Positions 5,019 through 20,781 of a DNA stretch of 64,000 nt are shown here, piece by piece. The first letter of the stretch is position 1. The number at the start of each line of letters is the position of its first letter. Both the position numbers and the translations under genes were made by a program. The stretch lies in the NCBI GenBank assembly GCA_024742665.1, contig JANSYA010000001.1:1068425-1132424 (forward strand). Direction: 5' to 3'. The notes beneath the pieces are model-generated. The model saw only the letters and a program-made list of their open reading frames with translations. It did not search any database and was not told where the DNA came from. The stretch comes from a bacterium. Lineage in GTDB: Bacteria; Spirochaetota; Leptospiria; Leptospirales; Leptonemataceae.

Positions 5019-6056
5019 TTAACGATCGTTCAGGATCGCGCCGCGGCCGTCCTGATTCGCCAGCCGTTCGTACAGCCAGAGAAAGGGCTGGATTCGCCGA
5101 TAAGCCTTTAACTGCTGCTGATGCGGTTCTAAGAGCGGCGCTGTTTCGCGCAATTTAATCTGTGGACGATAGAGCAGTTCGTCGAGCGTGCGCGCCATCG
5201 GCGGGGTGCTCGCGAAGGCCGAGCCGATCAAGGGCGCATCCGGACCGGCGCTGCTTGCTGCGTCGCCGGAATTCACGGGGGCCAGGAAGAGCGCTTCGAG
5301 CAATGCCAGAGCGGCTTCGCGCGGATGAAAGATGCGCGCGACGTGGGGCCGCAGTGAAGATTCAATCGTGCGCACGTCCAATCCGGGCCGCTGGAAATTT
5401 TTCGTGATCATTACGCGCGGTCCGCGACCGGGATGCTTTTTTAAGAAACGATCCAGGCGATGAAAGAAAGCGGGAATGTCCATGCGCTCCGTATCCAGGC
5501 TGGCCAGAATCAAAGCGGGCAGGGGCGCGTCGGAGTCTGCGAAAGCGTCGGGAGCTTCGAGCAGTTCCAGGCTCTGCTGATCGGCGCGCACGTCATGGCC
5601 GGCGAAGTACAGCATCTGCCGGTACAAACTGCGATAGGTCGGATCGTCTTCGATCAAAAAAACGGGCCCGGCGCGGCGGGAGCGGGGCAGGGCCGGAAAC
5701 AAAATCGGATCGCCCGGAGCGGGCAAACGCCAGCAGGCGGCGATGCCCGTCTCGAAAAGCTCTGTCTCGGCCGGCGAGCGCTGCACACTCCGACCCGCCA
5801 GGACCAGCAGGGGGCGGTAGCAGCCGAGCAGCTCCCGGCGATCCTGAGCCTGGCTGTTCGGGAAATAGTTGAGGCCCCGGTGCAGACGTCCCGGCTGGAG
5901 GTCGCCCGCCGACCAGCGACGCAGCTGTGGCCCGGCCGCCCCCAGCCAGTATTCGATCAGGGACTGCTCGGCCTCGTCCAGGCCCAGACCGGCGACCAGG
6001 GGAAAGTCGGTTGTTTGAAATTCCGTAAATTGCGGTTGCGGCGCAGGGGAAGCCAT
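5019..6056 (-). CDS. Protein with a degenerate receiver-like domain, function unknown
   Basis: A 345-residue cytoplasmic protein without membrane segments. The middle (about residues 130-255) has the pattern of a response regulator receiver: V-F-L-I-E-D-D-P at the start, where the acidic pair belongs, then alternating helices and strands. The strand that should end in the phospho-acceptor reads L-I-L-A-S-L-D, with Ser at the expected Asp. A lysine occurs near the usual position (I-T-K-N-F). The N-terminal 120 and C-terminal 90 residues match nothing I recognise. It probably works as a phosphorylation-independent scaffold. Its start is divergent from the namZ gene, with overlapping 5' regions. 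Confidence 0.6.
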   Translation of the reverse strand: MASPAPQPQFTEFQTTDFPLVAGLGLDEAEQSLIEYWLGAAGPQLRRWSAGDLQPGRLHRGLNYFPNSQAQDRRELLGCYRPLLVLAGRSVQRSPAETELFETGIAACWRLPAPGDPILFPALPRSRRAGPVFLIEDDPTYRSLYRQMLYFAGHDVRADQQSLELLEAPDAFADSDAPLPALILASLDTERMDIPAFFHRLDRFLKKHPGRGPRVMITKNFQRPGLDVRTIESSLRPHVARIFHPREAALALLEALFLAPVNSGDAASSAGPDAPLIGSAFASTPPMARTLDELLYRPQIKLRETAPLLEPHQQQLKAYRRIQPFLWLYERLANQDGRGAILNDR

Positions 6057-6144
6057 GCGGCATCATTGTTTTCGAGCGGCCTGCGCGGCGAAAATCAAAA
6101 AACTACGCAGGCGTGCGCTTTCTTCTAATATAAGACTCCAAAAT

Positions 6145-7584
6145 ATGCTGCCAAATATAAGATCCGCCGCTCTGCCGGGCCCAGGCCCGACCCCCGGCAT
6201 CCCTTCCCGCCTGATTCCGGTTTCGCTGCTCTCGCTCCTGCTGATGTTGCCCGCCTGCTGCACGACCTCCGAAATCGGACTGGATCAGGCCGGCCGGCCG
6301 GTGCGGACGATCCTCGGAATCGAAAAGCGGGCCGAAGGCCGCATCACTCTGTACGACCTGCCGTCGAGCTGCTGGCCCGACGCCCCGGATCGAGGCGACC
6401 ACGGGGACGGGGAGCTATTGCCCACGCGCTCGGAAGATCCGCTGTTCAGCGGCCTGGATGCGGTTTCGATCGATCACTTTGCGCTGCTCAAGAATCGCCG
6501 CTTCGCTCTTTTGACCAACGCCACGGGACTCGACCGGAATCTGGATCGCGGCCTGGAGCTGATGCTGGAGGCCGGCGTGCGTCCCGAGCTGGTCTTTGAA
6601 CCGGAGCACGGTCTGTACGGCTATCTGGACGAGCCCGGCCCCGATGGTTTTCAGCGGGATCGCAAGCACGGCCTGCGCGTCCTCAGCCTGTACTCGAAGC
6701 GGCGTAAGCCGGCGCCGGAACATCTGGCCGGAATCGATTTGATCGTCGTCGACATTGCGAATCTGCCGGTGCGCTGCTATACCTATGTTTCGACTCTGAC
6801 CTATCTGATGGAAGCGGCTGAAGAGAATGGCATCGAGCTGCTGATTTTCGACCGGCCCAATCCCTACGGCTTCTGGCAGGCCCAGGGATCCTTTTTACAA
6901 GAAGGTTATACCTCGTTCGTCAGCGAAGCGCCGGTGCCCTTTCTGTACAGCATGACGCCGGGCGAGTACGCCAACTATATGGCGGACTTACGTTTTCATG
7001 ACCTGAAGTTAAGCGTCGTGCAGGTCGCGGGCTATCGCCGGGTGGAAATCGACGCGCCCCTGCGCAAGAGCTGGATCAATCCCAGTCCGAATATTCCTTC
7101 GCTGGAATCGGCCCTGGTCTATCCGGGCATGGTGTTTTTCGAAGCGGTGCCTTTCAGCCTGGGACGCGGCACGACCCGGCCTTTCGTGTATTCGGGAGCG
7201 CCCTGGCTTGAGGCCGAGTTGATCGTGGAAGGTTTACGCGAATTGAATTTGCCCGGAGTCGAGATCAGCGAGGTTTCGTTTCGACCGACCGCTTCGGTGT
7301 ATAAAAACCAGACCTGCCTGGGAGTGCAGCTGACGCCCGTGTCTTCGCGCTTCGATCCGCTGCGCACCGGCTACGAATATATGCGGCTCGTGCGCAAGCT
7401 GCATCCGGACCGCTTTCGCCTGCGCAAAGATCGGCAGGGGCGTCACTTCATCGATAAGCTCTGGGGCGGCCCCGCCTATCGCGAAGCGATCGAAGCGGAT
7501 ATTCCGTACGATCGCTTTCGCCGAACCTGGTTTCGCGAGGCCGAGATCTTCGAAGAGATCGTCGAACGCTATCGCCTGTATTGA
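6145..7584 (+). CDS. Exo-beta-N-acetylmuramidase NamZ family (DUF1343) lipoprotein
   Basis: A 479-residue DUF1343 protein. Characterised members (Bacillus NamZ/YbbC) remove terminal N-acetylmuramic acid from peptidoglycan fragments. Family motifs visible: F-E-P-E-H-G-L-Y-G, D-I-A-N-L-P-V-R-C-Y-T-Y and I-F-D-R-P-N-P. The N-terminus has a hydrophobic stretch ending L-M-L-P-A-C-C, a plausible lipobox, so it is probably an envelope lipoprotein. The frame opens at 6055, but an AT-rich TATAAG at about 6130 and the signal peptide favour the ATG at 6145. The last 30 residues are duplicated at 11429-11526 with three synonymous base changes. No other cell wall recycling gene is adjacent. Confidence 0.85.
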   Translation: MLPNIRSAALPGPGPTPGIPSRLIPVSLLSLLLMLPACCTTSEIGLDQAGRPVRTILGIEKRAEGRITLYDLPSSCWPDAPDRGDHGDGELLPTRSEDPLFSGLDAVSIDHFALLKNRRFALLTNATGLDRNLDRGLELMLEAGVRPELVFEPEHGLYGYLDEPGPDGFQRDRKHGLRVLSLYSKRRKPAPEHLAGIDLIVVDIANLPVRCYTYVSTLTYLMEAAEENGIELLIFDRPNPYGFWQAQGSFLQEGYTSFVSEAPVPFLYSMTPGEYANYMADLRFHDLKLSVVQVAGYRRVEIDAPLRKSWINPSPNIPSLESALVYPGMVFFEAVPFSLGRGTTRPFVYSGAPWLEAELIVEGLRELNLPGVEISEVSFRPTASVYKNQTCLGVQLTPVSSRFDPLRTGYEYMRLVRKLHPDRFRLRKDRQGRHFIDKLWGGPAYREAIEADIPYDRFRRTWFREAEIFEEIVERYRLY

Positions 7585-7651
7585 TCGCGACCAAACGCGC
7601 AACCCATCACGATTGTTTACGGCGCGGCTTACGCTTCTATTGTAGGCCTTC

Positions 7652-7680
7652 CCCGGGAACGCCCTGAGCTCCCGGGATTT
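7652..7680 (+). terminator. Putative terminator after namZ
   Basis: CCCGGGA (7652-7658) and TCCCGGG (7670-7676) form a GC-rich stem with an 11-base loop, followed on the plus strand by ATTTTA. The T tract is short. It lies between the convergent namZ and HXXEE genes and could act on both strands. Confidence 0.4.
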
Positions 7681-7718
7681 TAGCACCGCGACGTGATGTG
7701 TTGCTACAGCAGATGCGG

Positions 7719-8318
7719 TCAGCCCGGCCGGTTCAAGGTTTTGCCTGCCAGAAACTCATGCGAACGCTCATAAGGTTTTGATTGGACGGCGCTTTCATTT
7801 TTTTTCGCTTCTATTCCAATCCAGATATAAGTCGCAGCCAGCGTCGCGAACATGGGGAAGGGTCCGACCGCTTCAAAGGCCCAGAATATAAGGCCTCCCA
7901 GTACGAATAGGACGGCCAGGGAGCGCGGAGTAAGCCACTTTTCCTGAAGCGCTTTATACACGATAAACGCGTTCACCGGCAGATACAGTAAAACGCCCGT
8001 ATACAGGCCAGGGCTGAAATGCCAGAAATACAGGGTGCCACCGGCATGGAAGATCACGTTGTGCACTTGCGACGCCATAAAAAACAAAATGGCTGATTGT
8101 GCGCTGGCCTTATTCTCAAGGATTTGATGCAGGATAATATATACGAGGGTGATCGCCGTTAGAATCAAAAAAACCACTTCAGTAGAAAGCGGGTTATTGT
8201 CCGCAAAATACTGCAGGCGCCATTCCCTGAAATTAAAAATGACGTGTTCTTCAAAATGATGAATCGTGTAGGCGAGCGGCGCGAACAACAAGCTTATTGC
8301 AAAAGGGATTTTCTTCAC
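7719..8318 (-). CDS. HXXEE domain integral membrane protein
   Basis: About 199 residues, mostly hydrophobic, with five or so membrane segments. The signature H-H-F-E-E-H near the N-terminus gives the family its name, and a second His cluster (Q-V-H-N-V-I-F-H) follows in the middle. The conserved His/Glu residues within membrane segments suggest metal or quinone binding, but no function is established for the family. I chose the GTG at 8318 because GGAGA lies six bases upstream; an ATG at 8354 in the same frame lacks such a site. It is the last gene of the TetR-led minus-strand group. Confidence 0.75.
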   Translation of the reverse strand: MKKIPFAISLLFAPLAYTIHHFEEHVIFNFREWRLQYFADNNPLSTEVVFLILTAITLVYIILHQILENKASAQSAILFFMASQVHNVIFHAGGTLYFWHFSPGLYTGVLLYLPVNAFIVYKALQEKWLTPRSLAVLFVLGGLIFWAFEAVGPFPMFATLAATYIWIGIEAKKNESAVQSKPYERSHEFLAGKTLNRPG

Positions 8319-8416
8319 TGGACTTCTCCGATTTAAGTTCTCTATGTATTTCATGCGTGGGAAGCCGGGGCGGAAGCTCGTCGGCCCGGCTTCTTCGCTG
8401 AATAGGGCTGACTGAT

Positions 8417-9460
8417 TTATTCCAGCAGCTTGATTCGCATGCCGTCGCGGGCCACGACGATCTCGCCATCGTAGATTTTATCCATGCCCTTGATGAAAGC
8501 GCCTTCAATAAAACCGAGGGCCGGGATGGGCGGGATCAGGTGAGTCAGCACGAGTCGCTCGACGCCGGCTTTGGCCGCGGCTGTCGCGACTTCGTTGGTC
8601 GGAGTATGAGTGGTTCGGATCCGCTCGATTCTTTTGGGGTCGACATTGCCGCCGTGCTTCGCCACAGCTTTTGTGATGGTTCGCATCATCTCCAGATTCA
8701 CCGCCTCATGAATTAAAAGATCTGCATCGCGGGCGTGCGTAACGATCGCCGGGGTGTAGCGCGTATCGCCGCTGACCACGACAGTTTTGCCGCCGTACTC
8801 AATCTTATAGCCGTAGGCGAAGTCCCAGGCTGGATGGTCGACTCGAAATGCGCTGATTAGGACTCCGTTTTCGCTATAAACAGGGATCGCGCCGTCGCCT
8901 TCGATTTTAAGATCGCGCGCCTTCGCCATATCGAGGTGCGAGCCGTCGGGTTTGATTCCGACGATCCGCTGTCGTTCGTGCATGTCGTCTTCAAAGGATT
9001 GTCGCACGCCGTTCAAAAACTTCGTCGTGCCGGGCGGGCCGACAAGATTTACCTGATTTCGTCGGCCGTACAGCCAGCCGTTGTGCAGAACGTCTCCCAC
9101 GCCGGAGATATGATCGGAATGCAGATGCGTGAGATACACCGCATCGAGGCTTAGAATAGGAGCTCCGACAGCGTGGAGCTGGCGCGATGCGCCCTGGCCC
9201 GCGTCGAAGAGAAAAAAACGACCGCCGGCGACGACTCCAAGGCATGGCTGCGCGCGATCCGGTTGATACAAAGGCGATCCGGTGCCGCAGAAAACGATTT
9301 CGAAACGCCTGTCCGTCACGGTCTGTTGCTGCAGTGTCGATGGGACCTTGCGCTCGATATACGATCGCATCAAGGCCATCGAGTTCATTCGAAGCGTGAT
9401 AAATGCTGCGGTTCCGACTACCGCTGCGATCGCCAGGATTAAAGCCAATTTTTTTAACAT
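8417..9460 (-). CDS. Metallo-beta-lactamase fold hydrolase, RNase Z/arylsulfatase-like, secreted or membrane-anchored
   Basis: A 347-residue protein with an N-terminal hydrophobic segment (about residues 4-22), then an MBL fold. The metal motif L-T-H-L-H-S-D-H-I-S-G gives HxHxDH; further ligands are in V-V-S-G-D-T-R and in the C-terminal L-T-H-L-I-P. The start of the domain (F-C-G-T-G-S-P) is like RNase Z and AtsA-type arylsulfatases. With an export signal, a role on small molecules (ester, sulfate or lactone cleavage) is more likely than tRNA processing. The gene begins 18 bases after the DAPG-hydrolase-like gene, so the two are in one transcript and may act on the same compound. Confidence 0.85.
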   Translation of the reverse strand: MLKKLALILAIAAVVGTAAFITLRMNSMALMRSYIERKVPSTLQQQTVTDRRFEIVFCGTGSPLYQPDRAQPCLGVVAGGRFFLFDAGQGASRQLHAVGAPILSLDAVYLTHLHSDHISGVGDVLHNGWLYGRRNQVNLVGPPGTTKFLNGVRQSFEDDMHERQRIVGIKPDGSHLDMAKARDLKIEGDGAIPVYSENGVLISAFRVDHPAWDFAYGYKIEYGGKTVVVSGDTRYTPAIVTHARDADLLIHEAVNLEMMRTITKAVAKHGGNVDPKRIERIRTTHTPTNEVATAAAKAGVERLVLTHLIPPIPALGFIEGAFIKGMDKIYDGEIVVARDGMRIKLLE

Positions 9461-9478
9461 GTTATCATGAACCTTTTT

Positions 9479-10207
9479 TTAAAGCGTACTTCGCCAGTCC
9501 GCTCGATAGATCTCCGGCAGGAATCCCCCGAGAATGGACATTTCGGTTTTACAGTGCTCTTCCAGGTCGGTCGCCAGGGAACGACGAAGAGCCATAAAGC
9601 GGATTGCGGGCAGATTGGCCAGCGCGGCCAATCGAAACACTCCGGACGTTTCTCCGCGCCCGGCCACTTGACCGAGCCAGAAGCGCGAGTGCATGACAGC
9701 TCCGCCTGGAACATTCCGAACGATGTGACACATGCGACCGGTATCGACCGGCAGTTCGAGCTCCCCCACGATGGCGCAGACGACGAATGTTTCTTCATTG
9801 TTGGGGTCGGTCTGAAAAAAGCGAGCGGGATCCACGAAATGAATCCTGAGCTTCATCAAGTCCGGTCCGATATTTTCGTGAACCAAATGACTGGCCCCGA
9901 CGATTCTGCCGGGGCGTTTGGCTTCCCAGTCCATCCAGAAGTGGGCGCCGGGGTACCAGCGTTTGTAATGCTCGGTGGTCTGGAGATATGCAGCGAACCA
10001 GAAGCGGACCATGTCCGCCGTAACTCCCGGCAGCGAGGTTTTTACCGACACCTGATAGGTGCCGTCCAGGAAGCGCTCCGATCCGGTTCTGAACTTGCCT
10101 TCGAGCAAGCCATCCGTCGGAGCCTGAGTCGGCAAATATGCGAATGCCGCATTCAGCCCGCAAAAAAGAGCGACAAGAATAATAAAGGATGCACCGCTTC
10201 GCTTCAT
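9479..10207 (-). CDS. DAPG hydrolase (PhlG/phloretin hydrolase) family protein with signal peptide
   Basis: About 242 residues. After a signal peptide (M-K-R start, hydrophobic core, A-F-A end) comes the PhlG-type domain. Typical features are F-W-F-A-A-Y-L-Q-T-T-E-H-Y-K-R-W followed by P-G-A-H-F-W, A-S-H-L-V-H-E-N, and late E-E-H-C-K-T-E. These His/Glu residues correspond to the zinc ligands of PhlG, which cleaves a carbon-carbon bond in acylphloroglucinols. A signal peptide is unusual for this family. The ATG at 10207 is preferred for the signal peptide; 10225 is an alternative. A near-perfect palindrome lies about 50 bases upstream, and a TetR gene precedes it. The substrate is not known. 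Confidence 0.7.
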   Translation of the reverse strand: MKRSGASFIILVALFCGLNAAFAYLPTQAPTDGLLEGKFRTGSERFLDGTYQVSVKTSLPGVTADMVRFWFAAYLQTTEHYKRWYPGAHFWMDWEAKRPGRIVGASHLVHENIGPDLMKLRIHFVDPARFFQTDPNNEETFVVCAIVGELELPVDTGRMCHIVRNVPGGAVMHSRFWLGQVAGRGETSGVFRLAALANLPAIRFMALRRSLATDLEEHCKTEMSILGGFLPEIYRADWRSTL

Positions 10208-10253
10208 GACAGTCTCGGACGCCATGCAGCGAACTCAGAATCGAAGCGTCAAC

Positions 10254-10277
10254 AAAATTAGAACATGTTCTAGTTTT
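10254..10277. promoter_or_regulatory. Palindromic operator, probable TetR binding site
   Basis: A 14-base perfect palindrome (TAGAACATGTTCTA, 10259-10272) lies within a 24-base dyad whose outer AAAA and TTTT arms also pair; only one base pair mismatches. It sits between the TetR stop (10317) and the first structural gene (10207), where a local repressor would act. The core fits the general TnnAACnnGTTnnA pattern of several TetR-family operators. That this TetR binds it is inference. Confidence 0.65.
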
Positions 10278-10316
10278 AAAACCCGTTCCGATTGTTCCGA
10301 AATCTCCGGGTGGGGG

Positions 10317-10949
10317 CTACCCTGGCCGGACGGGCAAATCCAATTTCCGGAGCGCACGATTGAGGCCCCGCTGAATTCTTTCGGGCGGGACTCCGAGGAT
10401 TCCCAGGCAGTGAGCCAGCAGTTGCGGTGAAACTGCGAGGATCTGAAACTCTGCGTCTTCCAATCTTGCGCCGACTGTATCCTGCAAAAGGCCTTTGACG
10501 GCCAGGGAACGAAAATAAAAGTCTTCGCAGTTCCACTCGGGATGGAACTGGCCGAACAGCTCCTGATTTCGTTCGGCTGCGTTTTCCATCAGCAGTTTCG
10601 TGATCGAATGTGAATGATAGGCGACCCGATAGAGCTCGGCGACGGGCCGGTTTCGGGCGATGACTTTGATTTGCAGTCCGATTTCCAGAGCGAAACGAAA
10701 CACCACGTCTTCGGTCTTGCCCGCCAGATGGTCCGCGCGGTCGGCGGAACTCTGAAAGACCTCCCGCACGATGAACTTCAGGATCTCTTCTTTGTTCTTA
10801 AAGAAATGATACAGGCTTCCGGTCGTGATTTTCGCCGACGAGATGATCTGACGGATCGTCGTATTCGCGAAGCCTCTGGCGATGAATAGCCTGCGCGCCG
10901 CGAAAATAATCCGGCCGCGGACTTCTTCTTCGTGTTGCTGACGTTTCAT
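10317..10949 (-). CDS. TetR/AcrR family transcriptional regulator
   Basis: A 210-residue protein. The N-terminal helix-turn-helix reads A-A-R-R-L-F-I-A-R-G-F, T-T-I-R-Q-I, I-T-T-G-S-L-Y-H-F-F, the standard TetR DNA-binding domain. The C-terminal ligand domain is not recognisable by family. The ATG at 10949 is chosen over a TTG two codons upstream. It is the first gene of a four-gene minus-strand group with the DAPG-hydrolase-like, MBL-fold and HXXEE genes. The palindrome at 10254-10277 is its most likely target. No matching copy of the palindrome is visible before its own start. Confidence 0.9.
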   Translation of the reverse strand: MKRQQHEEEVRGRIIFAARRLFIARGFANTTIRQIISSAKITTGSLYHFFKNKEEILKFIVREVFQSSADRADHLAGKTEDVVFRFALEIGLQIKVIARNRPVAELYRVAYHSHSITKLLMENAAERNQELFGQFHPEWNCEDFYFRSLAVKGLLQDTVGARLEDAEFQILAVSPQLLAHCLGILGVPPERIQRGLNRALRKLDLPVRPG

Positions 10950-11040
10950 GGACAAAAAAGCGGCGCTGCTTTGCGCTGGTTCCCCTCGGTAGCTTCTGAT
11001 TTCGAAAACAATTCGCCGCGAGCGACAGAGGGCAAGTCAA

Positions 11041-11526
11041 TATCTTGAGAAATTATCTTGCTGCATCTATGCGAAACGATTTTATTTTTCCGGCGATTGG
11101 TGGATTCAGATCGCTTTTAAGATCAAAAACTACAAAGCTGACGATACCGGGCTCGAGTGCATTGGAACCGGGAGGCAGCAAATCGGCGACGGTGGTTTCA
11201 TCGCTCAGATTAAAGATAAAAAGACGGGCTCCATTCTGGCCGTAACGAACAGTGCCTTACGCTGTATGGTTCTTCATCGTGCGCCTCTGAACGAAGCATG
11301 TGCTGAAGAAGCGAAGCCCACAGCGGGAGAGAGGAGATTGCCAGTTCACCGAATTTGCAGAGCCTCAGCGATGGGTTCAGCCTGATTTCGATCACAGCTC
11401 CTGGCCACATGCCACGGTGTATTCGGCTGAAGCGGATATCCCCTACGATCGCTTTCGCCGAACCTGGTTTCGCGAGGCCGAGATCTTCGAAGAGATCGTC
11501 GAACGCTATCGCCTGTACTGATCGCG
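11041..11526 (+). pseudogene. Frameshifted, chimeric gene remnant joined to a copy of the namZ 3' end
   Basis: From about 11041 the plus strand reads a protein-like frame (Y-F-S-G-D-W-W-I-Q-I, then I-G-D-G-G-F-I-A-Q-I-K-D-K-K-T-G, L-A-V-T-N-S). After a GA-rich run near 11326-11336 the sense continues in the +1 frame (Q-F-T-E-F-A-E-P, P-D-F-D-H-S-S-W-P-H-A-T-V-Y-S), then at 11429 it runs into the last 30 residues of NamZ. The first part resembles secreted proteins with a carbohydrate-binding-like F-D-x-S-S-W-P motif, but I cannot name the family. No start codon or ribosome site is clear, and the frame is broken, so it is a remnant. The rest of 10950-11751 holds only GC-rich inverted repeats. 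Confidence 0.6.
11429..11526 (+). repeat. Direct repeat of the namZ 3' end (partner 7492-7589)
   Basis: These 98 bases match 7492-7589 except at three positions. All three are third codon positions that leave the protein unchanged (Ile, Pro and Tyr codons). The match stops just after the stop codon (TGATCGCG). The two copies flank about 3.8 kb containing the TetR-led gene group. Confidence 0.9.
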
Positions 11527-11551
11527 TCAACTTTGTCTAAAACCGTACACA

Positions 11552-11620
11552 GCCCCGCCCCCTTTGTGGGCGGATCCATGGAGGCGGGGAAAGTGTTTAT
11601 CCCGCGCAAGCGGGCGGGGC
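11552..11620. repeat. GC-rich inverted repeats between the remnant and the DUF2330 gene
   Basis: GCCCCGCC (11552-11559) can pair with GGCGGGG at 11583-11589 or GGCGGGGC at 11613-11620, and CCCGC/GCGGG (11601-11605, 11610-11614) forms a small inner hairpin. There is no T run. It could be an old terminator of the remnant or simply GC-rich filler. Confidence 0.35.
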
Positions 11621-11751
11621 GCTGCCTGCCTTACGGCTCTTGCCGGTCGCCGACAGTCTAGCACGAAAAAAACAGACAAGCAAGGCCGAAAAAAGTCACA
11701 CTGGCATGCTATGCTATCATCGGCCCAATCCGCGCGGATCAAGCCCGGCAA

Positions 11752-13170
11752 TCACCAGAGCTGCTCCCACCATTTCTTTTTCGCGGGATATGGGTTCGAC
11801 GATTTCGCGGTGACGCCCATCTTCTGGCGAATGTCGTTGATATTCCAGCCGGTCAGGCCGGCCAGGCTCTGGGCTTCTTTTTCGTAGCGGGCCGGCAGGC
11901 TGCGGCGATAGCTGTCGGCCGCGCTGCAGCTGGAGCCGCCTTTATACGCGTGGCGCAGAACATAGCGTCCCTGAAAATTCGCGCGGTCGGCTGTTTCCTG
12001 AAAGACCAGATCTTCGGGAAAGGTTTCGCCGGTATATCGCACGTGCAGTCGGGTCACGAAAGCGTTTTGCGCGCCGCCGGGGCCCGGGGCGATGCGCGAG
12101 CCGTTCGGATCGCGGGTATTCGGCGCGTCGATCCAGAAGACTCCCAGTTTGCGCAGCTGTTCCGCTGATAAAGGATCGGCGGCGCAGGGATCGCACCAGC
12201 GCATGTCCCAGGCGTATTCTAAAAAGACCGCGCGCATATTTTCTTTTTGTACGGCGCGCGAGAACATATCGCGATAGAAATCGCTGAACTCGTTTTTGAC
12301 GTAGGCCGGGATCTGCTGGCCCGTCGGCATGCGCACGGTGCGATAGTTACTGGTTTCAACGCGGCCGTTTTTGGTCAGAGCGAAAACGAAGAGATCCTGC
12401 GGGCCTTTCGCGTTCAGCGTGCCCAGGCGAATCGGCAGCATGAACTTCGGCGATTCGTATGCGACCTGCAACGGGCGCAGATAGCTGAAGCCGTTCTTCG
12501 ACTGCTTTTCCAGATTGACCTTCGCGACGAAGAATCGCATGTCCTGTTTGATGTAGCTGCCCAGAACGCGCGATGCGCCGTTCGGGATCTTGTAGCCGCT
12601 GACCGTCAGCCAGCGTTCGAGTCCGTTGCTTTCTTTCGCCGAAAGAATTACGATGTCGTATTCGTCCACCTGGTATTGGGCTTCGACCGTCACGCCGGTG
12701 CTTTTTTCCAGATCGCTTTCGCCCGCGCCGCTTGTCGGAGCGGACTTTGATTCGTCCCTCATCTGCATGCGTTCGTAGCGTCGAATATTACACGGGTCCT
12801 CGTCGAAGTACTCGACGAGGCGCGGCGCGCTGTAGGCGTCGAGATGGTCGATCAGCGACGGATCGGCGACGTTGATCTGGCCGCGTTCGATAAAGGTCGG
12901 CACGGGTACGACCAGCGCGAAGTCTTTGGGTTCGCCCTGGTAGTCGTTAGCCATCGTGAGGACCGTGCGGTCGCCGTCGCGGACAAGTACGACGCGCGAA
13001 GCCTGATTGTACAGCTTCGTATCGGCGCGCGCCACGTAGAAGCCGCAAAAAGCGCGCACCTCTTCGTGAAAGACGCCGGCCAATAAGACGGCGAAGGTCG
13101 CGGGGATCAGCGCGGCGCGCGCGAATCGCTTGCGCAGGCTCGGTGAAGGTTTCGTATTTGCAGATTTCAT
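11752..13170 (-). CDS. DUF2330 domain-containing secreted protein
   Basis: A 472-residue protein. A basic N-terminus and hydrophobic core end at V-R-A, followed by F-C-G-F-Y-V-A-R-A, the hallmark start of mature DUF2330 proteins. The next conserved stretch is V-V-L-V-R-D-G-D-R-T-V-L-T-M-A-N-D-Y-Q-G. The C-terminal part has paired cysteines (W-C-D-P-C and S-S-C) that may form disulfides. It is likely periplasmic or surface exposed; function is unknown for the family. The ATG at 13170 overlaps the stop of the RnfD-like gene by 4 bases, so the two are translationally coupled and probably act together. Confidence 0.85.
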   Translation of the reverse strand: MKSANTKPSPSLRKRFARAALIPATFAVLLAGVFHEEVRAFCGFYVARADTKLYNQASRVVLVRDGDRTVLTMANDYQGEPKDFALVVPVPTFIERGQINVADPSLIDHLDAYSAPRLVEYFDEDPCNIRRYERMQMRDESKSAPTSGAGESDLEKSTGVTVEAQYQVDEYDIVILSAKESNGLERWLTVSGYKIPNGASRVLGSYIKQDMRFFVAKVNLEKQSKNGFSYLRPLQVAYESPKFMLPIRLGTLNAKGPQDLFVFALTKNGRVETSNYRTVRMPTGQQIPAYVKNEFSDFYRDMFSRAVQKENMRAVFLEYAWDMRWCDPCAADPLSAEQLRKLGVFWIDAPNTRDPNGSRIAPGPGGAQNAFVTRLHVRYTGETFPEDLVFQETADRANFQGRYVLRHAYKGGSSCSAADSYRRSLPARYEKEAQSLAGLTGWNINDIRQKMGVTAKSSNPYPAKKKWWEQLW

Positions 13171-14150
13171 TTTCCAGCTCCAGATAGAATGGGGGCGACC
13201 GTCGGTCGTTCGCCTGGTGTCGTTTGGCTTTCGCGTGTCAGGGCGAAAGGATTTTGCGCGAAGAGTCGCGTTCGCTTGCTGACGCGATCGATGAGAGGCA
13301 CGCTAAAGGCGCACCAGAATAACGACCAGAGCAGGCCGTTGCTGTTATACAGTCCGAATTGGATCGCGAAGGCCACGGCTGCGGTCAGGGCGGCGAAGAC
13401 GATGCGGCCGATGCGCGCATCGGGCGTGCTTTTGGGATCCGAGATCATAAAGAAAGCGAAAATCAAAAGCGCGCCGCTCGAAAGTTGATTTATGACGATC
13501 GGCCAGGGATCGCCCAGCCAGGTCGCCCGAAGCAGAACGAGGCCGCCGTACATTCCGAGAAAGGCCAGGGTGATGTCGCTGCGCAGCGCGCGAAAGAGTA
13601 CGAAGCCGCCGGCGCAGGCCACGAAAAAGAGCAGCAGGCCTTCGCGCCCCCACTGACCGGGTGAAACCCAGGCGTCGCCCGAAAAGATAGCGAGCACCGC
13701 AATAATGCCGAACAGAGACGGATTGAAGACGTGTTTGCCGTTTACGCGAATCAGAAATTTGCTGCCGATGGCCAGCGCGCCGGCCAGGGCCGTGATCCAC
13801 AGTTCGTTTGTGCGCAGAAGCAATGCGAGAGAGAGCGCGCTGATAGCCGGGGAACGCCAGTCGAAACCGATGCGCACGGGATTGGTTTTTTTGCGCAGGG
13901 CGATTACGCCGAGCACTTGCGCAAACAAGCAGGCGGCGAGTACGACGGGGATGTGTTCGATATAACGCGAAAACTCCAGAAACTTCAGCCCGTAACATAA
14001 GATTACGATCTGACAGAAGAGCTGGTACAGGCGCGGATCGCTGCGCGAAGACCATGCGGCTTTCGCCGGCCCATTCGATGCAGCCGGCATAGCCGGACTT
14101 GATGGCGCCGCCATGCTCGATGACGAATTTTGAAACGCTGCCGATTTCAC
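13167..14150 (-). CDS. Stand-alone RnfD/NqrB-like membrane protein
   Basis: A 327-residue polytopic protein with about nine membrane segments. The stretches V-F-N-P-S-L-F-G-I and S-G-A-L-L-I-F-A-F-F-M-I-S-D-P-K are the conserved pieces of the NQR2/RnfD/RnfE family, subunit D of Rnf electron transport complexes. No other Rnf subunit is present in the window, and I do not see the S-G-A-T type motif used for covalent flavin attachment. It may therefore be a transport or anchoring relative rather than part of a real Rnf pump. A GTG at 14150 or an ATG at 14114 could be the start. It is coupled to the DUF2330 gene by a 4-base overlap. Confidence 0.75.
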   Translation of the reverse strand: MKSAAFQNSSSSMAAPSSPAMPAASNGPAKAAWSSRSDPRLYQLFCQIVILCYGLKFLEFSRYIEHIPVVLAACLFAQVLGVIALRKKTNPVRIGFDWRSPAISALSLALLLRTNELWITALAGALAIGSKFLIRVNGKHVFNPSLFGIIAVLAIFSGDAWVSPGQWGREGLLLFFVACAGGFVLFRALRSDITLAFLGMYGGLVLLRATWLGDPWPIVINQLSSGALLIFAFFMISDPKSTPDARIGRIVFAALTAAVAFAIQFGLYNSNGLLWSLFWCAFSVPLIDRVSKRTRLFAQNPFALTRESQTTPGERPTVAPILSGAGK

Positions 14151-14248
14151 GCACGTTGGACGTAAGCCCTGGCGGGGATGTTCGCGGCCGGACGCGGTCG
14201 AGGCTCGAAAAAATCGCGCGGACGGGCGCGCGATTTTTCACTGGAAAA

Positions 14249-15913
14249 CTAATTCGAGAGATTGAGAGCGATGACCTCGACGGGGTCGCGTTTGCCCCGC
14301 AGCACGACCGGATTCGGACTGTGGACTTCGACGCCGCGCATGCGGTTGCAGTGATCTACAAAACCGTCGCGCGTAATCAGAATCGGTTGGTCCAGTTCTT
14401 TCGTCGCCGCTTCTAAACGACTGGCGACGTTGACCGTATCGCCCATCACCGTTAGTTCGCGCCGGGATTCGGAGCCGATATTTCCGCGGATGACCGGCCC
14501 GCAGGCCATACCGATGCCGATGCGCAGCGGCGAAAATCCCAGGCGTCCGATCTCGGCGTTGGTTTCTTCCATACCTTTGATGATTTCGATCGCCGCGCAC
14601 AGGGACAGCAGGTGATGCTGGTTGTCGCAAAACTCGGCGTCGAAGACCGCCATCACCGCGTCGCCGATAAATTTATCGACGAAGCCGTTATAGCCCGTAA
14701 CCGACGAAACGATACGCGAAAAGTGAATATTGAGAATGCGCACCACGTCTTCGGCGGAGTGCTCTTCCATCATGCCGGTGAAGCTGCGCACGTCGGAAAA
14801 GAGCACGACCGCTTCTAAACGTTCGCCGCCGTCGGTTTTGACTTTACCGTTCAGGATCAGGTCGCGGATTTCCGGAGATACATAGTGGCCGAAGAGGGTT
14901 TTCATCATCTCCATGCGGCCGAGCTGTTCGCTCATTTGATTCAGAGTCCGTTGCAGGCGTCCGAATTGATCGTCGCTCTGCACGACGACGCGCGCCGAAA
15001 AATTATGATTCGCGATTTGCCGCGTCGCTTCTTCCATATGCTGGATCGGCATCGTAAAAGTATAAGCCGTAAGCCAGGTCAAAACGAAACCGAAGCCCAG
15101 AAAGAGCGCGCCGACGATGCTTGCGGCGACCAGGGCCCGGCCGATTTCGCCGGGATCGTGAGGACCGTAAAAATAAGCGATGGCGATGACGCCGGCCATG
15201 GCCAGAGCCGGGAAAACTCCGTTTACGAGAAAGAGATCCATAAAACGCCATGAAAGCGTCGGTCGCCAGAATTTGCGTTTCGCGCGAATGGGGCTGTCCC
15301 CGAACCAGTCGGGAATAAAAAACACGCGATTCATTAAGTCGGCGGCGTGATAGGCGATGATCGCGTTGACCATCGTCGCGAGAAAGCCGACGGCGATGGC
15401 CGGAGCGGCGGGCAGCCCCTCGGGAATGTACGAATAGTAGATGAACATACCCACGCCCCAGAGAGCGTAGGTCGCGCCGACGAGAAAGGCCGGGAACTGA
15501 AAGATGCGGTTTCGCGCGCGAATCAGCTGAGTCGTCGTCAACTCTTCGCCGCGCCGCCGCAGGCGATGGGCGATGAAGACCGGCCACAGATAAAAAATCA
15601 TCAGCGCCCAGTAGACGCCTTCCAGGGCGCCGAGCCAGAAAATCGACGCGTTGTGAACGGGGACTTCCTGTAAGAGATAACGGATGATGACGGCGTCGGC
15701 CGCCAGCACCACCGAAACTTCAATGGCTTCCGCCAGCAGGGCCGGTCCGATCAGCATAAAGTACGGAGCGTAGCGCCGCACGAAATCCGCGACGCGTCCT
15801 GTGACGAAGCCGTACGGAACGGCGGCCTGAGCCGATGTTTGAGTCTGCGCGGCGCTGTGCGCAGTCTGAATTTCGCGGGAGCCCGCTGCTTCGTCCTTAT
15901 GTCCTGCTGACAT
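14249..15913 (-). CDS. Membrane-bound class III adenylate cyclase with HAMP domain
   Basis: A 554-residue protein. The N-terminal half carries about six membrane segments, then a HAMP-like linker (residues about 280-330), then a class III cyclase domain (about 365-520). Both metal-binding aspartates are present (L-F-S-D-V-R-S-F and I-G-D-A-V-M-A-V-F). The purine-specifying residues are Lys in V-D-K-F-I-G-D and Asp in V-M-G-D-T-V-N-V, which points to ATP and so cAMP as product. It starts 12 bases after the stop of the Mla-type auxiliary lipoprotein gene and looks like the last gene of that transcript. Confidence 0.88.
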   Translation of the reverse strand: MSAGHKDEAAGSREIQTAHSAAQTQTSAQAAVPYGFVTGRVADFVRRYAPYFMLIGPALLAEAIEVSVVLAADAVIIRYLLQEVPVHNASIFWLGALEGVYWALMIFYLWPVFIAHRLRRRGEELTTTQLIRARNRIFQFPAFLVGATYALWGVGMFIYYSYIPEGLPAAPAIAVGFLATMVNAIIAYHAADLMNRVFFIPDWFGDSPIRAKRKFWRPTLSWRFMDLFLVNGVFPALAMAGVIAIAYFYGPHDPGEIGRALVAASIVGALFLGFGFVLTWLTAYTFTMPIQHMEEATRQIANHNFSARVVVQSDDQFGRLQRTLNQMSEQLGRMEMMKTLFGHYVSPEIRDLILNGKVKTDGGERLEAVVLFSDVRSFTGMMEEHSAEDVVRILNIHFSRIVSSVTGYNGFVDKFIGDAVMAVFDAEFCDNQHHLLSLCAAIEIIKGMEETNAEIGRLGFSPLRIGIGMACGPVIRGNIGSESRRELTVMGDTVNVASRLEAATKELDQPILITRDGFVDHCNRMRGVEVHSPNPVVLRGKRDPVEVIALNLSN

Positions 15914-15925
15914 TATGCGAATCTC

Positions 15926-16690
15926 TCAGGAATCCGGCCCGGTCGCTTCGTCCGCGTCTTTTGCGGGCTCGTTAATATCGTCGGCGTCGGCGTTGCAATT
16001 CGGGAGCTGGAGCTGCTTCAAATCGTTTTCCAATTTGCCCAGAATCGTGACCAGATTCTGATTGTGGGCCCGCACCAGGGCCGCGCCGTCGCTGGAAGCC
16101 GCTCCGGCGTTCGCGGCGTAGCTGCGTTCGAACATGACGGCCTCGCCGTACCGCAGTAGAATAAACTGAACGTCGATTACGGAAGCAGGTTGGTCCTGAC
16201 GAAGATCGGCGTAGATTTCGTTGACCTGCGCTTCCAGAATATAACACGCATCGACCTGGCTGGAAAGATCCACGACTCGCGCGAATATGCCGCTCTTCGA
16301 AAGCCAGCGCCGGGTTTCTTCGGTGATATTCACCGCGGCGCCGGTCAGAAATTCATTATAGAAATCTGTTTCGTAGCTCACGTCGCTGCGGCGATAAACG
16401 AGTCCGCGGCTGGCGAAGCGCGGCGAGACGCGAAAGCGTCCGATCTTCAGAGCGTCGGCGAACATCGAAGCTTCGAGAGTGGATCGCTGCTGCACGCTGG
16501 ATTCCGCGCTCAGGGCGAAGAATCTTTTTTCCGGATACTCTTTCTCGAGACTGCCGAGGCAGGCGGCCGTCGTGAAGGCGGTCAGCGCCGCGATCGCGAG
16601 TGCGGCCGCCGGTAGAACTCGCCGCCGTTTCAGAATTCGTCGGCCAGGATTTCTGGATTCGTAGTGCATGGATTGAAAACCGGCCCTCAT
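15926..16690 (-). CDS. ABC-type transport auxiliary lipoprotein (PqiC/Mce-associated)
   Basis: A 254-residue protein. The N-terminus has twin basic clusters, a hydrophobic core and L-T-A-F-T-T-A-A-C, a lipobox. The following region (R-F-F-A-L, R-F-R-V-S-P-R-F, L-V-Y-R-R-S-D) is characteristic of the auxiliary lipoprotein family found with MlaD/Mce transporters. Such lipoproteins contact the MCE protein at the outer membrane and help move phospholipid between membranes. The start overlaps the MCE gene stop by 4 bases (ATGA). The C-terminus is acidic (D-A-D-D and similar). An alternative start lies at Met8. Confidence 0.8.
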   Translation of the reverse strand: MRAGFQSMHYESRNPGRRILKRRRVLPAAALAIAALTAFTTAACLGSLEKEYPEKRFFALSAESSVQQRSTLEASMFADALKIGRFRVSPRFASRGLVYRRSDVSYETDFYNEFLTGAAVNITEETRRWLSKSGIFARVVDLSSQVDACYILEAQVNEIYADLRQDQPASVIDVQFILLRYGEAVMFERSYAANAGAASSDGAALVRAHNQNLVTILGKLENDLKQLQLPNCNADADDINEPAKDADEATGPDS

Positions 16691-17613
16691 TGATTTTGAC
16701 CGGCCTGTCCGGGCGGTTCGCCGAAGAAAATCAGAGAAGGATACTGTCGCGCGTTCGCGGTGAGCTCTTTCATATCCTGCGAAACCTGGCGCAGATTTTC
16801 GACGGCTTCGGTGACGCCGCCCTGGTTGCCGGCGATCAGCGTATCGAGTCGTCGCGTCGTCCGGCGAATGTCGGTAACGGTCGCGCTGAGCTCGCCCGGA
16901 ATCTTTTTCATCTGGGGGTCTTCAGTGAAAGCCCGCAACGATTCGTTGGTCTTACGCAGCTCGGCGATCAGCCCTTCGGTTTCGCGACTCAGGCGATCTA
17001 CCCGCGCTTCTTCGATCGCGCTGGTCATCACGACGACCAGCCGGTCGATATTGCGAGCGATCTTTTCGACTTCGGCCTGCTGCATCTCTTCGATGAAATC
17101 ATCGACGGCGGAACCGATGCGGGCGAAGGCGCTGGTCGCCGAAGGTATATAAAGGTTTTCGGGATCCCAGGAGATATCGAGGGGCGGATTCTTTTCCGGT
17201 TCGAGATAATCGACTTCCAGAAAGAGCTGACCGGTGATGCCGGCCGCGACCAGGCGTACGCGAAGCCCGCGCGCGATTTCCGAGTTCAGGCGATCGGGCT
17301 GGAATTTCCCTTTGGCCGGCAGGCTCATTTTTACGACGACGTAGCGGCCGAAATTTTTGGGATCGTTTTCGGCGGTCAGCGCGTAGCTGTTCCGCGCGAA
17401 ATCGATCTCTTTGACGATGCCGATCTGTACGCCGCGTTCTTTCACCGGGCTGCCGACGCTGAGGCCCTGGACCGATTCGTCCAGATAGGTTTCGAGATCG
17501 ATCGTATCGCGCATTAAAGCGCCCGCTCCCAGGACCAGAATGCCCGCCACGCCCAGCAGGACGGCGCCCAATACGAAGAGGCCAAGTTTGAAATACGAAG
17601 ATTTTGCGTTCAT
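16687..17613 (-). CDS. MlaD/MCE family lipid-binding protein
   Basis: A 308-residue protein with one N-terminal membrane segment (about residues 8-28), then an MCE domain (about 38-115) marked by Y-L-D-E-S-V-Q-G-L-S-V-G-S-P-V-K and G-V-Q-I-G-I-V. The remainder is a long helical region, as in MlaD/PqiB-type proteins, that likely forms part of a periplasmic channel. It is the substrate-binding part of a phospholipid ABC transporter with the MlaF and MlaE homologues upstream. A gap of 190 bases separates it from the ATPase gene; nothing convincing is coded there. It is translationally coupled to the lipoprotein gene downstream. Confidence 0.9.
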   Translation of the reverse strand: MNAKSSYFKLGLFVLGAVLLGVAGILVLGAGALMRDTIDLETYLDESVQGLSVGSPVKERGVQIGIVKEIDFARNSYALTAENDPKNFGRYVVVKMSLPAKGKFQPDRLNSEIARGLRVRLVAAGITGQLFLEVDYLEPEKNPPLDISWDPENLYIPSATSAFARIGSAVDDFIEEMQQAEVEKIARNIDRLVVVMTSAIEEARVDRLSRETEGLIAELRKTNESLRAFTEDPQMKKIPGELSATVTDIRRTTRRLDTLIAGNQGGVTEAVENLRQVSQDMKELTANARQYPSLIFFGEPPGQAGQNQ

Positions 17614-17803
17614 AGATTGCGGCGGGTCCCGCCTGATTTGACGAAATTCACAGCCGGCCTGTTCTCATAAGAGGCGGTGCTGCTGAAAATCCATCGCCTG
17701 TTTTCAGAGGAGACGGCGACCCGTAGACCCTTATCGCATCGACACGAGTCGCGATCAACTCCGATTTGAAAACCCGCAGCTTCCTCGCGAGACATAAGTC
17801 GAA

Positions 17804-18619
17804 TCATTCGAAGATGTTCGGCAGCGGATCGCGATTGAAAAACTGTCGGACCCAGGGGTTGTCGCTCGTATCGCGCAGGTCCGCGGGGTCTCCTTCGGCG
17901 ACGATGCCTTTCGTGCGTTTGTCGAGCATGATTACCCGGTCGGCGATCGAGAAGATGCTCGGCAATTCGTGCGTTACGACGACGAAAGTGATCTTGAGGT
18001 TGTGGGCCAGGTTTACGATCAGGTGATCCAATTCCGCCGAAGTGATCGGATCCAGACCGGCGGAGGGTTCGTCCAAAAATACAATCGAAGGATCGAGGGC
18101 CATGGCCCGGGCGATGGCCGCGCGCTTTTTCATGCCGCCCGAGAGTTCGTCCGGTTTGCGATCCGCGAAGCTGTCCAGGCCGACCAGTTTGAGTTTCATT
18201 CGCGCGATCAGCTCGATCGCATCGTCCGGCAGATCGGTGAATTCTTTCAGCGGCAAACATACGTTGCCCAGCACCGTAAGATTGCCGAAGAGCGCGCCCA
18301 TTTGATACATCACGCCGAAGCGCCGCAGAATCGCGCGGCGTTCGTCGCCCGTCGCGGATACGATGTCGTCGCCTTCGATTAAGATCCGGCCGGCGATCGG
18401 TTCGATTAAACCGATCATTTGTTTGAGCAGCGTGCTCTTGCCGCAGCCGGAGCCGCCGAGAATTACAAAGACTTCGCCGCGAAAGACGTGAAAGCTTACG
18501 CCGTCCAGAATCACCGTGCTGCCGTAGCCGGCTTTCAAATTGTCGACTTCGATGATGGTCTCCGGCGGCATGCCGGAGGTTACCAGGTGAGATTCTGTTA
18601 GATAATTCGAGTCGGTCAT
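17804..18619 (-). CDS. ABC transporter ATP-binding protein, MlaF type
   Basis: A 271-residue ATPase with Walker A G-G-S-G-C-G-K-S-T, signature L-S-G-G-M-K-K-R, Walker B I-V-F-L-D-E-P-S-A-G-L-D and switch His in V-V-T-H-E. The M-K-K-R-A form of the signature is typical of MlaF/Ttg2A lipid-transport ATPases. It powers the MlaE permease in the inner membrane. The ATG at 18619 has GGAAG five bases before it and is preferred over a TTG four codons upstream. The mlaE-like gene ends about 30 bases upstream, so the genes form an operon. Confidence 0.92.
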   Translation of the reverse strand: MTDSNYLTESHLVTSGMPPETIIEVDNLKAGYGSTVILDGVSFHVFRGEVFVILGGSGCGKSTLLKQMIGLIEPIAGRILIEGDDIVSATGDERRAILRRFGVMYQMGALFGNLTVLGNVCLPLKEFTDLPDDAIELIARMKLKLVGLDSFADRKPDELSGGMKKRAAIARAMALDPSIVFLDEPSAGLDPITSAELDHLIVNLAHNLKITFVVVTHELPSIFSIADRVIMLDKRTKGIVAEGDPADLRDTSDNPWVRQFFNRDPLPNIFE

Positions 18620-18650
18620 GGCGGCTTCCAAATCGTTGCGTTTGCCTGGT

Positions 18651-19883
18651 CTATATATCCAGCAGATAAAAGATCACGGCGAAGATGCCGTCGACGACCG
18701 CGATGGCGATGATGCCGCTGACCACCGCGCGCGTCGTCGATTCGCCAACCGCGCCGGCACCGCTTTTCGTATGCAGTCCCATATAGCAGCCGATGCCCGC
18801 GACCAGCGCGCCGAAGACCGTGGATTTCAAAAGGCCGCTCATCAGGTCGGTCATATCGACGGCCGATAGCACCTGATTATAATAGACGACCAGCGGATAG
18901 CCGAAGGACTTCAGCACCGTAAAACCGCCGATCAATCCAGAGATATTAAAAAACAAAGTCAGCAGCGGCACCATCGCGACCGCCGCGACGATGCGCGGGA
19001 GCACGAGAAATCGCATCGGCTCGACGCCCATCGTGGTCATGGCGTCGATCTCTTCGTTGATTTTCATCGTGCCCAGCTCGGCGGCGAAAGACGAACCGGT
19101 CCGTCCCGCGAGAATGACGGCGGTAATCAGCGGGCCCAGTTCGCGCAGCAGCGAAAGGCCGACTAAGTTCGCGACGAAAATTTCCGCGCCATAAATGCGC
19201 ATAGGAATCGCCGACTGAAAGGCCATGATCAGTCCGAGTAAAAAGCCGATCAGAATAATAATCGGCAGCGCGTTTACGCCGACCTTTTCGGCGACCTGCA
19301 GGGTTTCGCCCCAGCGCAGAGAGAAGGGCTTGAGCAGGGCCCGCAAGGCGTAATAAAAAAATTCGCCCAGGAAAATCGTGCGCTGGCGAAATTTCTCTTC
19401 GAAGATTTCCAGCGTCGCCCGGCCGATGGAATCCGGTAGATTAGAATAAATGACTTCGTGTTTTTCGAGGCGCTCGAAATCGGCCGAGCCGTACATTTCG
19501 ATGAGAGCGTTCAGGTCTTCGCTGGCTCCGATCAATTCGAAGGGCGCATCGCTTTTTCGTTCGCCGGCATCGCTTTGGGTTTCGACGGTGCTTTCGATCC
19601 GGGTCGTCGTTGCCGCCACGTCGGCATTCGGCGGCGTTCCCATTCGGCGCCGGCATTCGGCGATATAGCCGACTCCCGCTCCGTCGCAGTACATCAGCCG
19701 GCTGGCGTCCAGGCGCAGGCGGGCCGGCTTCAGAGTATTCAACAGCCGCAGGGTCTGGCGCCAGGCTCCGCCAACGGATTCCACATTCAACTGCCCCATC
19801 AGGCGCAGGGTCAGCACGCCGTCGATGTGTTCGGATTCGAAGACGAGCTGTCCCGAAGTTTGTTGGCTCTGGTGTGCTGGCAA
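18651..19883 (-). CDS. STAS domain-MlaE permease fusion
   Basis: A 410-residue protein. Residues about 10-110 form a STAS-like domain (G-V-L-T-L-R-L-M-G-Q-L-N, C-D-G-A-G-V-G-Y); residues about 165-410 are the MlaE permease with conserved I-I-L-I-G-F-L-L-G and the loop E-L-G-T-M-K-I-N-E-E-I-D-A. In proteobacteria the STAS partner (MlaB) is a separate protein; here it is fused to the permease, a known alternative. It forms the membrane part of the phospholipid transporter. The start is a TTG at 19883; no ATG is suitably placed. Confidence 0.9.
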   Translation of the reverse strand: MPAHQSQQTSGQLVFESEHIDGVLTLRLMGQLNVESVGGAWRQTLRLLNTLKPARLRLDASRLMYCDGAGVGYIAECRRRMGTPPNADVAATTTRIESTVETQSDAGERKSDAPFELIGASEDLNALIEMYGSADFERLEKHEVIYSNLPDSIGRATLEIFEEKFRQRTIFLGEFFYYALRALLKPFSLRWGETLQVAEKVGVNALPIIILIGFLLGLIMAFQSAIPMRIYGAEIFVANLVGLSLLRELGPLITAVILAGRTGSSFAAELGTMKINEEIDAMTTMGVEPMRFLVLPRIVAAVAMVPLLTLFFNISGLIGGFTVLKSFGYPLVVYYNQVLSAVDMTDLMSGLLKSTVFGALVAGIGCYMGLHTKSGAGAVGESTTRAVVSGIIAIAVVDGIFAVIFYLLDI

Positions 19884-19998
19884 ATCGAATCCCCGCGGCG
19901 GCGAGCTACTGGGAGCGTCGTCGCCGGTGAATGGAGGTTGTGAGCCCTGGCGTTCCGCGTGGCAAGCAATTTCGGTTCGCTATAATGCAGCCGCTGCT

Positions 19999-20781
19999 TC
20001 AGACCGTCGCGGGCGTTCCGTACAGCATCTCGTGCACCCGGGCGCGGGATGCTGGCGTATAACGATCGGCGGTGATGTCGGCGATCAGGCGGCCCTGCTT
20101 TAAGAATACGTAGCGGCTCGCGGTCTCGCGAAAAAAATCTTCGTCGTGGGTGGTGATCAACGCCGCGCCGCCGCGGGCCGCGAAGTCCCGGAGCAATTCG
20201 CGCATGGCCTGAGCGCCTTCACGGTCCAGTCCGGTGAGGGGTTCGTCTAACAGCACCAGATCGGGCTGCGTTAAGAAGACGCGACACAGGCCCAGTCTCT
20301 GCTGCATTCCGCGGGAGTAGGTGCGCACGCGATCGTCGCGTCTCCCGGCGAGTCCGGTGCGAGTCAGCAGCTCGTCGACGCGCTTTCTGTATTCGGATGC
20401 GTCACGCTTGCGGGCAGTGTACCGGCGATCGTTGATGCTCAGAAAGAAGCTCAGATTTTCGGCGGCGGTCATATCCAAAAAGAGACCCGGCTCGTGTCCG
20501 AGAAAGCCGATGCCCGCGAGAAATGCGCGCCGCTCTTCGATCGTGCGAACCGGCCGGTCCTGAAAAAAGATTTCGCCGCCGTCGGGCGGATTGCGCGAAG
20601 TCAAAGCCGAGAGCAGCGTCGACTTGCCCGCGCCGTTCGGTCCGAGCAGGCATACGATTTCCCCCGCGGCCAGATCGAGCTCAACGTCGATCAGAGCGCG
20701 CCGGTAGCCGTAGCGTTTCGTCAGCCCCGCCAGGCGCAGGCCGCCGCCTTCCGGATTCGATAGTCCCTCTTCGGCCTTCAC
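19999..20781 (-). CDS. ccmA: ABC transporter ATP-binding protein, CcmA-like (heme exporter)
   Basis: A 260-residue ATPase with Walker A G-P-N-G-A-G-K-S-T, signature Y-S-R-G-M-Q-Q-R and Walker B L-V-L-L-D-E-P-L-T-G-L-D. The signature and compact size fit CcmA, which drives release of heme-loaded CcmE in cytochrome c maturation. The GTG start lies 6 bases after the stop of the CcmI-like gene, within a set of cytochrome c maturation genes. CcmB and CcmC, its usual membrane partners, are not found downstream; the MlaE gene follows instead. A role with another transporter is therefore possible, but context favours CcmA. Confidence 0.75.
   Translation of the reverse strand: MKAEEGLSNPEGGGLRLAGLTKRYGYRRALIDVELDLAAGEIVCLLGPNGAGKSTLLSALTSRNPPDGGEIFFQDRPVRTIEERRAFLAGIGFLGHEPGLFLDMTAAENLSFFLSINDRRYTARKRDASEYRKRVDELLTRTGLAGRRDDRVRTYSRGMQQRLGLCRVFLTQPDLVLLDEPLTGLDREGAQAMRELLRDFAARGGAALITTHDEDFFRETASRYVFLKQGRLIADITADRYTPASRARVHEMLYGTPATV

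Follow-up and report, generated by a model that had tools for sequence, protein, structure and literature searches.

What event left a second copy of the 3' end of namZ, fused to unrelated DNA, 3.8 kb beyond the gene itself? The 64,000-nucleotide stretch analysed here (the window) contains namZ, encoding an exo-beta-N-acetylmuramidase, at full length (6055..7584, plus strand; assigned by Pfam NamZ_N and NamZ_C and by gene order). An earlier note on this DNA had described a gene island bounded by two copies of the end of this gene, at 7492-7589 and 11429-11526, and had proposed origins for it.

The repeated end of namZ

The repeat proved to be exactly as described in the earlier note, with 95 of 98 bases identical between the left copy (7492..7589, plus strand) and the right copy (11429..11526, plus strand), the latter also found in a genome-wide search. 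The repeat runs from the final 30 codons of namZ through its stop codon to 5 bases beyond, and the similarity has sharp edges without extension on either side. The right copy, a namZ 3' stub, seems to have no function. The three differences (ATT/ATC, CCG/CCC and TAT/TAC) bear out the claim that all are synonymous, and two of them fall in the first 15 bases of the repeat. Under neutrality, the probability that three of three changes are synonymous is about 0.01 with equal rates to 0.02 with transition bias, but with a mere three changes, two of them no more than 15 bases from the joint, this evidence is weak. Synonymous-only differences would thus modestly favour two alleles that were each once functional. 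The proposal that the second copy came from a working paralogue agrees with them to the same modest extent, given that most of these few changes cluster at the joint.

The repeat occurs at just two places in the whole 6.03 Mb genome, the second copy being found with E = 6.5e-41. A chance repeat is ruled out by that value and the two places, and a widespread repeat family by the copy number; the earlier note had named a widespread, unrelated sequence as its refutation, and none is present. The contig is 1.69 Mb long, and its first 1.6 Mb was used for self-comparison. Here the other listed repeat pairs less than 60 kb apart are mostly tandem (spacing less than 200 bases), apart from a 1.2 kb pair, 5.8 kb apart and 81% identical, which is probably two paralogous genes, and a weak 64-base pair 56 kb apart. 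No other short dispersed pair like the namZ repeat was found in this 1.6 Mb.

The DNA between namZ and ccmA

The order thiL, response-regulator-like gene, namZ is common to eight relatives of the family, so the full-length namZ sits in its ancestral place. The closest genomes compared belong to other genera of the family, and their namZ genes are about 45-62% identical. A second full-length namZ of the same kind is absent from the genome; the other homologue is 32% identical and lies on a different contig. No copy of the namZ tail was found near namZ in 19 relatives, none of the relatives compared has two namZ genes of the same type at the locus, and the namZ homologues from a contig scan for named relatives were all remote. 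An enoyl-CoA hydratase gene (window 4148-4957) separates thiL from the response-regulator-like gene and was not found there in the relatives compared; it is possibly a second insertion upstream of namZ.

In one relative (G007), namZ and a ccmA-like ABC gene stand head-on, their reading frames overlapping by a few bases with no DNA between, and past the ccmA-like gene follows a gene series that matches 20.0-28.5 kb of the window. In another (G018), the same series is present, but 3.8 kb of unrelated genes are inserted between namZ and ccmA. This insert (L047 7092-9875) encodes a protein with cysteine-rich repeats and a sensor of 7TM/PAS/kinase-like type. In a third relative (G009), part of the series is inverted and lies further from namZ, which places a rearrangement breakpoint behind namZ there too. 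When this locus (L032) was compared with window 20-37.5 kb, the genes of window 22-37.5 kb lay inverted behind namZ. In the window, the ccmA-like ABC ATPase gene (19999..20781, minus strand), which follows namZ downstream in both G007 and G018, is separated from namZ by 12.4 kb (7590-19998). The native right-hand neighbour of namZ would therefore be ccmA at 19999, 8.5 kb beyond the second repeat copy. The DNA immediately right of that copy is ruled out as the native flank, since ccmA neighbours namZ in G007 and, beyond the insert, in G018. With a namZ-ccmA gap of 0 in G007, 3.8 kb in G018 and 12.4 kb here, the interval takes up unrelated DNA; made at family level, this comparison tells which DNA is extra against G007 and G018 and does not recover the arrangement that directly preceded the event. 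The earlier note had called for close relatives to be aligned in search of an empty site; G007, a family-level relative in which namZ abuts ccmA, supports an insertion behind namZ but falls short of a true empty site. Its island of 3.8 kb is only the left part of the 12.4 kb of extra DNA, which also includes 11527-19998 (block B).

The left part up to the joint with the stub, 7590-11428 (block A), contains four genes, all on the minus strand. Its GC content, which the earlier note had proposed to compare with the flanks, is 54.0%, and only 1.9% of equal contig windows are as low, compared with 58.4%, near the contig mean, in block B. The HXXEE gene ranks among the 0.3% of genes with the lowest GC, and the other three are just mildly low. 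In order along the window, the four genes encode an HXXEE-motif membrane protein (7719..8354; Pfam PF13787; 47.5% GC), whose homologues in relatives are all weak; an MBL-fold hydrolase of an RNase Z-like branch (8417..9460), which scores below all named cut-offs and has a near full-length homologue in a single relative (G025, 33%); a PhlG/phloretin-hydrolase-like enzyme (9479..10225; Pfam PF18089, E = 9e-39), with a homologue in 1 of 40 relatives (29%); and a TetR-family regulator (10317..10955; Pfam PF00440), which is first in the four-gene group. Between the converging namZ and HXXEE genes, a GC-rich inverted repeat at 7651-7683 (CCCGGGA...TCCCGGG) is followed by TTTT and looks like an intrinsic terminator.

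Solved structures related to the PhlG-like enzyme are 5xey and 3hwp. In an alignment with the phloretin hydrolase 5xey, four positions (H, E, H and H) match, which we take to be metal ligands. The enzyme scores 54 bits against the 600 of the PhlG equivalog cut-off, and its substrate is therefore not assignable from the family. Judged from its gene families, block A most probably forms a small operon under TetR control for hydrolysis of a phloroglucinol- or phloretin-type aromatic ketone, and its role is likely to be detoxifying or catabolic; this cargo role has no bearing on the repeat. When named plasmids and phages were searched, the nearest PhlG-like homologues among the matches listed were on Sulfitobacter plasmids (46-48%), and no named phage record carries a match. 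Genes similar to those of block A and to the gene relic at its right border sit on alphaproteobacterial plasmids, and within the family block A has the look of foreign DNA, which also supports an insertion. A Pfam profile search found no integrase gene in block A, nor a recognisable remnant of one, and a defence island was rejected, as PADLOC gave no hit.

Block B has ordinary codon use. It contains a DUF2330 gene with an RnfD-like gene (11752..14150, minus strand), a pair that stays together, and a nucleotide cyclase gene with an Mla-type operon for a lipoprotein, MlaD, an ATPase and MlaE (14249..19883, minus strand). In relatives, the pair and the Mla-type operon are found at other sites, not adjoining one another. 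Judged from sequence, block B is lineage-type DNA moved beside namZ by rearrangement or transfer. GC-rich runs at 11540-11640 (CCGCCCCC...GGCGGGG...GCGGGCGGGGCGC), between the namZ stub and the DUF2330 gene, are possibly a hairpin or terminator remnant.

The relic at the right border of block A (11080..11428, plus strand) is that of a PEBP-family gene, 51% identical to a Loktanella PEBP family protein. The identity of about 51% to Loktanella plasmid proteins extends over residues 62-175 of 215. The 5' part (the first ~61 residues) is unrecognisable, one frameshift lies near 11320, and the 3' part is missing, the relic ending exactly where the namZ stub starts (11428/11429). A homologue of it was found neither in the rest of the genome nor in any of 40 relatives. 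A broken foreign gene thus runs straight into the second copy, which marks the joint as non-homologous. Near the joint, the relic reads TCG GCT GAA GCG GAT at a point at which its homologues have the residues S-A-A-D or S-E-R-Q, and a GAAGCG-type microhomology at the joint is possible. Neither a tRNA nor a known RNA was found at the joint, and the 33-base core of the stub has no match in viral contigs. A viral origin was rejected, as no viral contig carries the stub core and no phage record a PhlG-like gene.

The earlier note had seen no integrase or transposase, which holds for the island. Genome-wide, a search with PF00589 gave just two matches, both Xer-like (XerC/D-looking) and far from the locus, and no PF00239 resolvase was found in the genome. 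A ComEC-type gene is present; it is compatible with DNA uptake and no proof of competence.

Origin of the second copy

We give a probability of about one half to the reading that the second namZ 3' end is the scar of one-sided homologous recombination, by which DNA was captured from a close relative. The DNA that entered the cell would have come from a genome with block A and a PEBP-family gene already in place behind namZ. One end of the fragment (namZ end, block A, truncated PEBP gene) would have recombined with the resident namZ by homology, and the other end, inside the PEBP gene, would have been ligated to a non-homologous site in the resident namZ, some 90 bases short of the end of that gene. 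Alternatively, the fragment may first have circularised there, with a single crossover then integrating the circle. The tail of the resident namZ, block B and the ccm genes would have been pushed downstream, and namZ would have stayed whole, its 3' end being supplied by the incoming copy. We infer the donor, the order of events and the enzymes used.

The anatomy of the locus is a continuous namZ at the left border and a truncated PEBP gene fused to a namZ tail at the right. Capture is favoured as the simplest account, since a single event would leave namZ intact, produce the stub, truncate the PEBP gene and need no integrase. It is favoured as well by the position of the joint (11428/11429) inside a broken PEBP gene without its 3' part, by the low GC of 7590-11428 and the absence or rarity of block A and the relic in relatives, and by a namZ-ccmA interval that varies among G007, G018 and this genome. 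Synonymous-only differences are expected of two functional alleles, and the two Xer-like PF00589 matches, the lack of PF00239 and the ComEC-type gene point the same way. Against capture, neither the donor arrangement (namZ followed by block A) nor the recipient one (namZ followed by block B) was seen in the relatives compared, which are of other genera; the two mismatches near the joint may reflect the joint and not allelic divergence, and the deletion of recipient DNA that is typical of one-homologous-end integration is not visible here. The same product would also result from an integrase acting on an element with a captured namZ tail, or from the loss of most of a second namZ.

The loss of a second namZ would have begun with a duplication of namZ or of its end, with block A and the PEBP gene coming to lie between the copies; a deletion from within the PEBP gene into the second namZ would then have spared just the final 98 bases of the latter. 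We consider this unlikely, though it deserves more weight than the other alternatives. A deletion would cut the PEBP gene and the second namZ at the same joint, as is found, and synonymous-only changes fit a formerly working copy. It requires three steps (duplication, insertion of block A, deletion), and the relatives show neither two such namZ genes at the locus nor a tail fragment. The collapse of a tandem namZ duplication, as the earlier note had put it, is possible but unsupported, given the lack of a second full-length namZ and of a tail copy in 19 relatives. More doubtful is a site-specific integration of a small element into namZ, in which the element's own namZ 3' end became the left copy and displaced that of the host to the right, the integrase having been lost or having acted in trans. 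A gene 3' end at both borders with the frame kept, homology that stops 5 bases past the stop codon and differences that are synonymous only would all suit such an event. The insertion behind namZ, as far as the earlier note had proposed integration at a gene 3' end, is supported; the truncated, frameshifted PEBP gene at the inner border, in place of an element end, argues against a clean integration of this kind. Block A lacks an integrase gene or remnant in a genome with Xer-like tyrosine recombinases only and no PF00239, no other gene-3'-end repeat of such kind was found in 1.6 Mb of contig, and the stub is without a match in viral contigs.

An assembly artefact, with two strains or loci misjoined at the repeat, is very improbable. 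The genome is in draft form, at 93% completeness and 3.8% contamination, but the joint between PEBP gene and namZ is not at shared sequence and would not be created by repeat confusion, and the contig is long, with flanks that follow the gene order of relatives. We give still less credence to the idea that small islands without an integrase use the namZ 3' end as their attachment site and are mobilised in trans, perhaps by the Xer recombinases; if it were true, islands would carry a copy of the end of their target gene and the host gene would stay intact.

With one-sided capture as the preferred reading, the locus is clearly an ordinary kind of recombination scar, well preserved, and nothing in it points to a dedicated mobile element. 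The namZ-ccmA junction is then an example of foreign-gene uptake without such an element. The signature of the joint, a gene-end stub fused to a truncated unrelated gene, could serve as a search pattern for counting events of this kind across genomes.

Comparison with known systems

Prophages 21 and e14 in icd restore the 3' end of the host gene. Like these prophages of E. coli, the namZ locus has inserted DNA flanked by two copies of a gene 3' end, and the reading frame is preserved; unlike them, it has no integrase or phage genes, and its inner border is a truncated gene. Insertion in icd is described for lambdoid prophages (PMC12803456).

Displacement of old 3' ends by one-homologous-end integration has been modelled at T6SS and Rhs loci (PMC5361080). 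Like the orphan 3' ends of these loci, the stub and the genes downstream would have been shifted by a new module behind a conserved gene part, and the model likewise combines one homologous end with an illegitimate join at the opposite end. The 3' ends at Rhs/T6SS loci differ, whereas both copies here encode the same residues, and the shifted piece there keeps a selected immunity gene, whereas the stub here seems useless.

Integration with one homologous end, known as homology-facilitated illegitimate recombination (HFIR), and circularisation followed by a single crossover have both been described; HFIR was rare in experiments, and recipient DNA was usually deleted (PMC3240628). Like HFIR, the namZ locus combines one homologous with one non-homologous joint. 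In the HFIR experiments the deletion was of similar size, whereas the product here looks additive, and is thus closer to circularisation and then a single crossover than to experimental HFIR.
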